From Acidimicrobiales bacterium (GTDB lineage Bacteria; Actinomycetota; Acidimicrobiia; Acidimicrobiales; DASWMK01): 52,360 nt of DNA. A program made the position numbers and the translations under genes. The notes beneath the pieces are model-generated. The model ran no database searches. It was given only the letters and a program-made list of their open reading frames with translations, and was not told the DNA's origin. Positions 33,111-36,291 of the stretch are shown piece by piece. Location of the stretch: NCBI GenBank assembly GCA_036399815.1, contig DASWMK010000202.1, positions 1-52,360 on the forward strand, given 5' to 3'. Numbering within the stretch: position 1 is the stretch's first letter; each line of letters begins with the position of its first letter.

Positions 33111-34808
33111 TCAGCCGGCCTCGCCGTCGAGGTCGGCGGGGCCGCGGCCGGAGAGGAAGTCGATGGCCCGCCACGTGCTCGACGACACGAAGCGCTCGAG
33201 GCGGGGGCTGGCCATGAACCGGGCCGTCCCGGCCACGGGGAGCGGCGAGCCGGTGAGGGCCGCCTCCCTCGCCGCCGCGTGCGCCGTCTTGATCAGGTGG
33301 GCGGTGATGATGAACGACCCGGCCCGGTCGGCGAGCGACGCCCGCTCCAGCGCGGCCGCCGCCTCGTCGACCGGCGTGCCCATGGCGACCGCCACCGCCG
33401 CGTCGGGCCGGCCGGCCTCGACCTCGGCCCGGAGGTCGCCGGTCGCCGGCTCGACCTCGGGCGTCTCGACCGGCGCGCCGCGGCGCCACTCGGAGCGCCC
33501 CGAGTCGTGCACGTGGAAGACGGTGTAGAGCGCCAGGCGGAGCGTGTCGGGGCCGGGCTCGGCCCGCCACGCCCACCGGGCGGCGTCGGCGTAGGTGAGC
33601 GAGTGGGTGATGTCGAGCCAGCCGAAGTCCGTCGCCGGGTCGAAGTCGACGGACGGGTCGTAGCGCAGCAGCCGCTCGGAAGCGGCGAGCACGACGGTGT
33701 CGAGCAGCCGCTCCACCCCGGCGCCCTCCCGCAGCGCCCGGAGCGCCTCGACGGCCGGCGCGGCCTTGTCCCGGCCGAGCAGGGCGCCCCGCAGGCGCCC
33801 GTCGTCCCCCCACTCGTCGGCCGGCGGCGCCTCGGCCAGCGCGCCCAGGTCGGCGCCGGCCAGGGCCCGCAGGAACGGGCGCATCGGCGGGAGCTTGTCC
33901 TCCCTCGTGGCCACGACCACGGCCGGCACGAGGTGGGGCAGCACGGTGGCCGCCCGGTCCTCGCCCAGCGCGTCGAGCAGTGCGAACGCCTTCTGCGTGT
34001 AGATGGCGGCGTGGCCGAAGCCGAGGTGGTGGTCGCTCACCGCGCCGAGCAGCCAGCGGCGCAGCTCGCCGGCCCCGGCCCCCGCCTCGATGCCGCCCCG
34101 CAGCAGCGCCTCGGCCTCGTCGCCCCGCTCGTCCTCCACGAGGCGGCGGAACTCGCTCGCCGGGTCGGCCGGCAGCGTCCGGGCCGGTTCGGGCGCCGGG
34201 CGTAGGGGCCGGCGCCGCTCGACCTCGGCCACCCCGGCGATGGCCTGGACGATCGGCAGGGCGCGCGCGTCGCCGTCGTAGCGGGCGAGGATGGCGAGGC
34301 AGTCGGTGGCCGAGGCGAGCGCGTGGCCCCAGCCGAACTCGGCCCTCGGGGCGCCCCACGCCACCGCCTCCCACACGAGCTCGCCGGGGTCGGCCTCGGC
34401 CCGCAGCAGGCGGACGACGTCGCGGGCCGTCTGCCCCACGTAGCCGTTGTCGATGGCCGAGCGCAGGCTGGCGAGCAGCTTCGGGCGCAGCTCGGCCGGG
34501 TCGGGGTCGGTGACGTCCACCAGCACCTCGCCGCCGGCGATCGTCACCGGGTAGCTGCGCACGTCCTCCTCGCCGAGCACGCAGCGCCCGTCGGCGAGGC
34601 GGAACTTCCAGTTGTGCCAGGCGCAGGTGAGCTCGCCGCCCTTCACCTCGCCCTGGGTGAGCGCGTACCCCTCGTGCGGGCAGGCGTTGTCCAGCGCGAA
34701 CACGCCGTCGGCGGTGCGGACCAGGGCCAGGCGCCGCCCGGCGGCCCTCAGCATGCGGATGCCGCCGACGGGCAGCCGGTCGACGGTCGTGACGGGGACG
34801 AGCGCCAT
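33111..34808 (-). CDS. Rieske [2Fe-2S] protein fused to a large His-rich helical domain
   Basis: A 565-residue protein. Residues 1-~100 are a Rieske ferredoxin domain with all four ligands: Cys43-Pro-His45 and Cys62-x2-His65. Residues ~105-560 form a mostly helical Ala-rich region with conserved-looking histidines: GWGHA (162), SDHHLGFGH (260, 261, 266), DITHS (402), FHVHD (432, 434), and AHLIKTAH (504, 510). The His spacing in helices faintly recalls questin-oxidase-like (DUF4243) proteins, a low-confidence resemblance. No signal peptide. It lies 63 bp downstream of sufE on the same strand, so probably one operon. Possibly an oxygenase with a self-contained electron-transfer domain. Confidence 0.75.
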   Translation of the reverse strand: MALVPVTTVDRLPVGGIRMLRAAGRRLALVRTADGVFALDNACPHEGYALTQGEVKGGELTCAWHNWKFRLADGRCVLGEEDVRSYPVTIAGGEVLVDVTDPDPAELRPKLLASLRSAIDNGYVGQTARDVVRLLRAEADPGELVWEAVAWGAPRAEFGWGHALASATDCLAILARYDGDARALPIVQAIAGVAEVERRRPLRPAPEPARTLPADPASEFRRLVEDERGDEAEALLRGGIEAGAGAGELRRWLLGAVSDHHLGFGHAAIYTQKAFALLDALGEDRAATVLPHLVPAVVVATREDKLPPMRPFLRALAGADLGALAEAPPADEWGDDGRLRGALLGRDKAAPAVEALRALREGAGVERLLDTVVLAASERLLRYDPSVDFDPATDFGWLDITHSLTYADAARWAWRAEPGPDTLRLALYTVFHVHDSGRSEWRRGAPVETPEVEPATGDLRAEVEAGRPDAAVAVAMGTPVDEAAAALERASLADRAGSFIITAHLIKTAHAAAREAALTGSPLPVAGTARFMASPRLERFVSSSTWRAIDFLSGRGPADLDGEAG

Positions 34809-34871
34809 GGCGGCACTGTCGCGCCGACGGCCGAGAAAAACAAGCGTCGACTGTCGAAAGCCGCCGTCGCC

Positions 34872-35306
34872 CTAGGCGGCCGGCCGCGCCTCCCGCACCT
34901 GGCGCTTCAGCCGGGCGAGGATCGCCCCCATGCCCCGCAGCCGCTGGTGCGAGATGACCTCCCCGAGCCCCATCCGGTCGTAGAAGTCGTCGGGCACGCC
35001 GAGCACCTCGTCCCGGGTCGCCCCGTCGAGGCCCTCGGCCAGGATCCCGGCGAAGCCTCGCGTGGTGGGCGCCTCGGGCGGGCAGTCGAAGTGCAGGTGG
35101 ACCCGGTCCTCGCCGTCGACCTGCGCGCAGAGGAAGAAGGCCGTCTGGCACTCCGGCACCCGCTCCATGGCCTCCTTGTGGGCGGCGAGGTCGGGCGGCA
35201 GGGGCGGGACCTTCCTCGCGTACTCGAGGAGGGCCTGGAGGCGCAGGTCCTTCGGCGCCCCGCCGAAGAGGGTCACGATGCGTTCGAGCTTGGCGGGCGT
35301 CGGCAC
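34872..35306 (-). CDS. sufE: SufE-family sulfur acceptor protein
   Basis: SufE takes persulfide sulfur from the cysteine desulfurase SufS for Fe-S cluster assembly. The 144 residues show the family fold, with the acceptor Cys53 in VPECQTAFFL, the HFDCPPEAPTTRGFAGI segment and a C-terminal long helix (RLRGMGAILARLKRQVR). No sufS is adjacent. The GTG start follows CACAAT (minus strand of 35313-35318) by 6 nt. It is divergent from the thiosulfate sulfurtransferase and precedes the Rieske fusion gene. Confidence 0.92.
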   Translation of the reverse strand: MPTPAKLERIVTLFGGAPKDLRLQALLEYARKVPPLPPDLAAHKEAMERVPECQTAFFLCAQVDGEDRVHLHFDCPPEAPTTRGFAGILAEGLDGATRDEVLGVPDDFYDRMGLGEVISHQRLRGMGAILARLKRQVREARPAA

Positions 35307-35361: not shown

Positions 35362-36291
35362 ATGACCACCGCCGAGCCGACCGCACCCGCCGTCGAGGTC
35401 GACCACAACCCGAAGTTCCAGGCCTACGCCCACCCCGAGCGCCTGGTGAGCACCGAGTGGCTGGCCGAGCACCTCCAGGACCCCCACGTCGTGGTCGTCG
35501 AGTCCGACGAGGACGTCCTGCTCTACGACACCGGCCACATCCCCGGCGCCGTGAAGATCGACTGGCACACCGACCTGAACGACCCCGTGACGCGGGACTA
35601 TGTGGACGGCGAGGGCTTCGCCGCGCTCATGCGGGCCAAGGGCATCAGCCGCAGCACGACGGTCGTGTTCTACGGCGACAACTTCAACTGGTGGGCCGCC
35701 TACGCGCTCTGGGTGTTCTCGCTGTTCGACCACCCGGACACCCGCCTGGTCGACGGCGGCCGGGCCAAGTGGATCGCCGAGGGCCGGCCCCTCACCACCG
35801 AGACGCCGACGGTGAAGGCCACCGACTACCCGGTCGTGCCCCGCGACGACACCGGCATCCGCGCCTACCGCATGCACGTCGAGGACCACGTGCGGGCCAA
35901 GGCCCCGCTGGTCGACGTCCGGTCCCCCGAGGAGTACTCGGGCGAGAAGCTGCACATGCCCGACTACCCGCAGGAGGGCGCCCTCCGCGGCGGCCACATC
36001 CCCGGCGCCCGCAGCGTGCCGTGGAAGCGGGCGGCCAACGAGGACGGCACGTTCAAGACGGCCGACGAGCTGGCCGCCATCTACACGGTCGAGCAGGGGC
36101 TGTCCCGGGACGACGACGTGATCGCCTACTGCCGGATCGGCGAGCGCTCCAGCCACACCTGGTTCGTGCTCACCCACCTGCTCGGGTACCCGCGGGTGCG
36201 CAACTACGACGGGTCGTGGACCGAGTGGGGCAACCTCGTGCGGGCCCCGATCGAGCGGCCCGGCCTGCCCGTCCGGCCGCCCATCGAGTAG
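35362..36291 (+). CDS. Thiosulfate sulfurtransferase (tandem rhodanese, CysA2/SseA-like)
   Basis: A 309-residue rhodanese with two domains. The first (residues ~25-150) lacks a catalytic Cys; the second (~165-300) has Cys257 in [15 protein letters not shown], the loop of mycobacterial CysA-type thiosulfate sulfurtransferases. It moves sulfane sulfur from thiosulfate to cyanide or protein acceptors. A GGAGGG ribosome site lies 5 nt before the ATG. Divergent from sufE with a shared promoter region, which suggests co-regulated sulfur trafficking. Confidence 0.94.

Follow-up and report, generated by a model that had tools for sequence, protein, structure and literature searches.

What does a protein do that joins a Rieske iron-sulfur domain to a large helical domain, and does the sufE gene beside it have any part in that work? 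We asked these questions of a locus in a stretch of 52,360 nucleotides of acidimicrobial DNA, called the window below. The features to which we refer are collected in Table 1.

Table 1. Features of the Rieske/helical fusion gene and its neighbours, in window coordinates
Feature	Position	Strand	Remarks
Rieske/helical fusion gene	33111..34808	-	565-aa ORF from ATG; 46 related loci
Rieske [2Fe-2S] ferredoxin-type domain, residues 1-101	34506..34808	-	PF00355 2.6e-14; Foldseek to Rieske ferredoxins
Cluster ligands C43-P-H45	34674..34682	-	invariant 39/39
Cluster ligands C62-A-W-H65	34614..34625	-	invariant 39/39
All-helical domain (predicted), residues 102-565	33114..34505	-	pLDDT 94.8 alone; no Pfam, NCBIfam or PDB relative
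H162	34323..34325	-	invariant in main clade; Ala or other residue in distant clade
H260	34029..34031	-	conserved in both clades
H266	34011..34013	-	conserved in both clades
H402	33603..33605	-	conserved in both clades
H504-x-x-K507	33288..33299	-	H kept in both clades; K replaced by Q in distant clade
Gap between fusion and sufE, 63 bp	34809..34871	-	SoxR box absent here, unlike relatives
sufE, 144 aa, GTG start	34872..35306	-	PF02657 9e-28; judged a bystander
Rhodanese-type sulfurtransferase, divergent partner of sufE	35362..36291	+	PF00581 9e-31; conserved pairing

The Rieske domain and its helical partner

The N-terminal part of the protein had been read from the sequence as a complete Rieske domain, and this reading holds in full. 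The Pfam Rieske profile matches residues 3-80 (PF00355, E 2.6e-14), the four ligands of the CxH...CxxH motif are invariant in all 39 aligned homologues, and Foldseek places the domain in the Rieske fold, with a TM score by target of 0.93 against the Rieske ferredoxin 2qpz. The predicted structure likewise agrees with the claim that this domain is fused to a large helical one: the AlphaFold model of the whole fusion (pLDDT 95.1) is all-helical after residue 103, with residues 104-552 predicted as helical throughout at pLDDT 95.

The approximately 460 residues beyond the Rieske domain gave no Pfam or NCBIfam match above the curated cut-offs, and a Foldseek search of the whole fusion against the PDB returned only Rieske-containing structures, aligned over the Rieske part. 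Because the full-length search was swamped in this way, we modelled the helical domain alone. Among the 50 PDB matches then listed, nothing fell under E 0.001; a viral library yielded nothing, and we found no relative of known function by structure or by sequence. As modelled, the domain is unclassified, these searches having placed it in no known family or fold. Rieske non-heme iron oxygenases carry a C-terminal helix-grip catalytic domain, and the expectation that the fold here would differ from it was borne out by the prediction, which is all-helical and, beyond the Rieske part, matched nothing in Pfam or the PDB; Pfam and NCBIfam also returned no catalytic-domain match.

Internal repeats around H162, H266 and H402 are suggestive only, pairwise hhalign comparisons giving E values of 0.0046, 0.13 and 0.057, all at low probability. 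The MgsA_C profile (PF12002) matches five of the helical domains among the aligned members (best E 1.8e-5), and C-terminal fragments of AAA ATPases (3bge, 2r9g and 3ctd) are weak Foldseek matches to the helical domain, 3bge with a probability of 0.91 over 89 columns. These matches may reflect shared helical-hairpin repeats.

Relatives of the fusion and the conserved histidines

Public genomes, when scanned, yielded 46 relatives; the full-length fusion is present in Acidimicrobiia, Streptosporangiales-type actinobacteria, Planctomycetota and Myxococcota; the taxon names of some of the MAG homologues are doubtful, for example that of L022, which is labelled Acidobacteria. The fusion is real and old. 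A search of 296 genomes of the class additionally revealed a second clade (L067-L077), which has diverged to approximately 30% identity but is built of the same two domains; by profile comparison its helical domain is homologous to that of the main clade (hhalign probability 99.9%). The proteins of this distant clade, from Acidimicrobiia, are highly conserved and have extra histidines in RFHxxNDHxDW, VHHxFT and FHWFQ; they are annotated as Rieske alone, and most of their genes have no SoxR box.

The sequence-only reading had counted at least nine histidines in the helical domain and had suggested that they could bind a non-heme metal, naming six that should then converge in one pocket. There are ten, and every motif that was quoted is present. 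Of the six, H260, H266, H402 and H504 are conserved and H434 and H510 vary; H162 had been overlooked. We aligned the homologues in two sets, one of 37 proteins and a wider one of 39, which show the cluster ligands and H162, H266, H402, H504 and K507 as invariant; H260 is present in 38 of the 39 sequences, and H261, H292, H432, H434 and H510 are variable. Conservation of at least 95% is seen for 5 of the 10 histidines of the helical domain against 29 of its 464 positions overall (hypergeometric P 1.4e-4), and the histidines therefore reflect more than composition. The distant clade keeps H260, H266, H402 and H504 and has Gln at 507. Five histidines of the helical domain are thus conserved, across phyla, and as a set they resemble metal ligands.

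SoxR beside the fusion in actinobacterial relatives

In the relatives, the recurrent neighbour of the fusion is a divergent MerR-family gene encoding CIGCGCLS...C, which we take to be the [2Fe-2S] signature of SoxR. SoxR is a [2Fe-2S] sensor of redox-cycling compounds and antibiotics. A soxR homologue lies divergent beside the fusion at 18 of the 30 actinobacterial loci, and of the 7 other class genomes tested that have a full main-clade fusion, 6 carry the soxR orthologue immediately next to it and the seventh, G220, has no soxR orthologue.

The promoters point the same way. The site CTTCAAS-N4-STTGAAG, with at most two mismatches, is present upstream of the fusion at 27 of the 30 actinobacterial loci, compared with a single occurrence elsewhere in 255 kb, and at none of the 16 loci of other phyla, the Planctomycetota and Myxococcota copies included. 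Because this pattern was derived from the fusion promoters themselves, we re-tested them against the SoxR box published for E. coli, CCTCAAGTTAACTTGAGG (PMC4411124). At least 11 of the 14 core positions agree in 20 of the 30 promoters, as against 0 of 5512 random windows. The box lies between TTGACT and a conserved TA (TTGACT-19 bp-TA), the 19-bp spacing being that described for SoxR promoters (PMC4411124), and this arrangement between -35 and -10 was found in 27 of the 30 actinobacterial homologues. The fusion-gene promoter CTTCAAGnnnnCTTGAAG is one candidate SoxR target. We predict from neighbours and promoters that SoxR switches on the fusion gene in most of the actinobacterial relatives, a mode of control that fits a redox enzyme. 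SoxR of Streptomyces controls redox enzymes, tailoring enzymes and a transporter for redox-active antibiotics, and these targets respond to actinorhodin (PMC4146615).

Three further loci deserve mention. In genome G043, soxR is retained near a decayed, frame-broken Rieske/helical remnant (L089:1069-2918). Within the distant clade, the L072 promoter upstream of 3180(-), TTGACTTAAAGTGTTCTTTAAGTCCTAGCGT, has a palindrome between -35 and -10 at the long spacing of MerR-type regulators. One planctomycete fusion gene has as its divergent neighbour a gene for a winged-helix-like regulator, so judged by eye from the sequence only (L030:4282-4932, reverse strand). Phyla outside the actinobacteria seem to use other regulators for the fusion.

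The window lineage as an exception

The copy in the window lies outside this predicted regulon. Neither the pattern nor the E. coli box found a SoxR box at the fusion gene when the window was searched, the genome has no soxR orthologue (the best match is partial and 36% identical), and the sole candidate box within three mismatches in that genome is unconvincing. In the tree, 14 relatives with the box form the sister group of the window protein (100/100), and the actinobacterial group to which they all belong mostly has the box too. Given this position, the simplest reading is loss, and soxR and the box have apparently both disappeared from the window lineage. Since the genome is 96.7% complete, the absence of soxR is probable rather than certain; with neither an orthologue nor a box, SoxR control cannot hold in the window organism as sequenced.

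A proposed function and its alternatives

The domain order, the conservation of the ligands and the predicted regulation can be read from the sequences themselves. The reading that we tentatively favour, at somewhat short of an even chance, is that the fusion is an oxidoreductase, probably an oxygenase, which depends on a metal and is fed by the Rieske domain; it would act on redox-cycling quinone- or phenazine-like compounds and be induced by SoxR in most actinobacterial relatives. Its task may be the breakdown of redox-cycling antibiotics, by an enzyme so far unrecognised.

The metal, the electron path, the substrate and the chemistry that we infer are as follows. The Rieske domain would take electrons singly from a separate reductase and pass them to a metal in the helical domain, most likely non-heme iron, which would be held by H260, H266, H402 and H504; in the main clade H162 and K507 would join them. 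The enzyme would activate O2 and oxidise the ring in a quinone- or phenazine-like redox cycler, perhaps opening it, and the oxidation would remove a generator of superoxide. In most actinobacterial relatives SoxR would switch the gene on. A search for a dedicated reductase linked to the fusion gene found none, and anti-phage defence models gave no match. The broader proposal, of self-contained, Rieske-dependent oxygenases that would make up a new class, with a poly-histidine metal centre and a previously unseen all-helical fold, forming a SoxR-induced actinobacterial defence that destroys redox-cycling antibiotics, strikes us as rather doubtful.

The first alternative is a reductase or electron relay rather than an oxygenase: the Rieske domain, together with a metal or heme in the helical part, would reduce a quinone, or SoxR itself, and so stop redox cycling. 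Against it stands the usual role of Rieske proteins, which is in oxygenases or in chains of the bc1 type. The set of five histidines with an invariant lysine would also be unusual for a pure relay, and no partner reductase gene was found linked. The relay would account for the same SoxR linkage, and in Streptomyces SoxR is known to regulate a quinone oxidoreductase and a flavoprotein reductase (PMC4146615); overall we consider it unlikely.

The helical region had further been guessed to resemble questin oxidase (PF14027). Three proteins of this family have been solved, BTG13, AflY and PaD (PDB 7y3w, 8yxs and 8z4q), and GedK is another member. The metal site of BTG13 consists of four histidines and a carboxylated lysine. 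On the second alternative, the fusion would be a true but highly diverged PF14027 member that has gained a Rieske domain, with H...GH, HxxT and HxxK forming the same iron site and carboxylated lysine. The motifs of bacterial PF14027 proteins (NHxPM, THxxIRxGH, HxxTxxxA and HxIK) do follow the order seen in the fusion, a likeness between sequences that is a lead and not proof of kinship. When the fusion was compared with six bacterial PF14027 proteins, hhalign picked out the HxxK motif, but aligned it alone and with a probability of 5.6%; for the distant clade it aligned the HxxT motif alone, at 0.2%. The PF14027 profile matched none of 37 fusion members up to E 10, the three solved structures are absent among the 50 Foldseek matches listed for the helical domain, all of which lie above E 0.001, and glutamine replaces K507 in the distant clade. 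As the matches listed contain no solved fold outside the Rieske part and no member matched PF14027, the fusion cannot be filed as a questin oxidase; these measures do not support the guess, and a diverged kinship is distinctly improbable.

One locus nevertheless counts indirectly for that guess. At L054:747-2574, a PF14027 gene lies divergent from a soxR with 60% identity to the L018 one, and its promoter, TTGACTTGAAGTGGACTTGAAGTCGTAAGG, holds a SoxR box one mismatch from the fusion-promoter pattern; the PF14027 score, 27.2 bits against a cut-off of 27, is barely sufficient. Five other PF14027 loci are without the divergent soxR and SoxR box, so that L054 stands alone among the loci searched. 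Its sequence suggests SoxR control of a bacterial enzyme of the ring-cleaving type, and a PF14027 gene in the SoxR slot supports, without proving, a comparable job for the Rieske fusion. The fungal GedK, termed cofactor-free, cleaves its anthraquinone ring after reduction to the hydroquinone, the prior quinone reduction being performed by GedF (PMC9890505).

A regulator or sensor, with the Rieske domain sensing redox state, the helical superhelix binding a partner and the histidines holding structural zinc or heme, would suit the weak matches to MgsA_C (five members, best E 1.8e-5) and 3bge, which are scaffold-like helical domains. It appears highly improbable: the invariant charged residues and histidines resemble an active site, and most of the targets known for SoxR in actinobacteria are enzymes or transporters.

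There remains sufE, which had been suggested to support cluster assembly. Its product has the cysteine (EC53QTAF), and in the window it lies on the same strand as the fusion, 63 bp upstream. A protein search with the window neighbours found sufE and the sulfurtransferase near the fusion at none of the 46 homologue loci. In a set of 15 relatives that carry the sufE orthologue, the sulfurtransferase is divergent beside it in 14, the exception being a short contig stretch, and the fusion is beside it in none. Because sufE in the relatives keeps company with the sulfurtransferase and never with the fusion, we regard it as a bystander; we reject it as a functional partner on the missing linkage in both samples, and an Fe-S assembly module of the Suf type, which would show conserved sufE linkage, is scarcely credible. 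A rearrangement in the window lineage would have placed the fusion gene behind sufE. Just past the sulfurtransferase is a gene for a DUF427 protein (PF04248; 36313-36807, reverse strand).

Comparison with known systems

If the Rieske-fed oxidoreductase that we favour is confirmed, a Rieske-coupled catalytic fold would join that of the helix-grip oxygenases, and the actinobacterial SoxR response, which is known for handling the organisms' own redox-active antibiotics, would gain an enzymatic branch. The soxR linkage supplies a concrete class of candidate inducers, beyond what the sequence alone had offered.

The N-terminus shares its motif, size and fold with the Rieske-type ferredoxins that serve aromatic dioxygenases and toluene monooxygenase (2qpz, 5bok and 1vm9), but those are free carriers, whereas here the Rieske domain is covalently joined to a helical domain of 460 residues. 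Like the alpha subunits of the Rieske non-heme iron oxygenases, the fusion combines in one chain a Rieske domain and, behind it, a larger domain that may bind metal; theirs is a helix-grip catalytic domain, whereas the second domain of the fusion, as predicted, fits no known fold. With the PF14027 proteins (GedK, BTG13, AflY and PaD) it shares conserved histidines in separate motifs of the same order and an HxxK near the C-terminus, but those examined have no Rieske domain, and the fusion has no significant sequence or profile match to them, nor a fold match among those listed. In the SoxR regulon of Streptomyces coelicolor, as predicted for the relatives of the fusion, redox enzymes stand under a SoxR box (PMC4146615). 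That paper describes six targets, no one of them as a Rieske protein, and does not use the word Rieske at all (PMC4146615), whereas in the relatives of the fusion a Rieske protein has soxR itself as its divergent neighbour.
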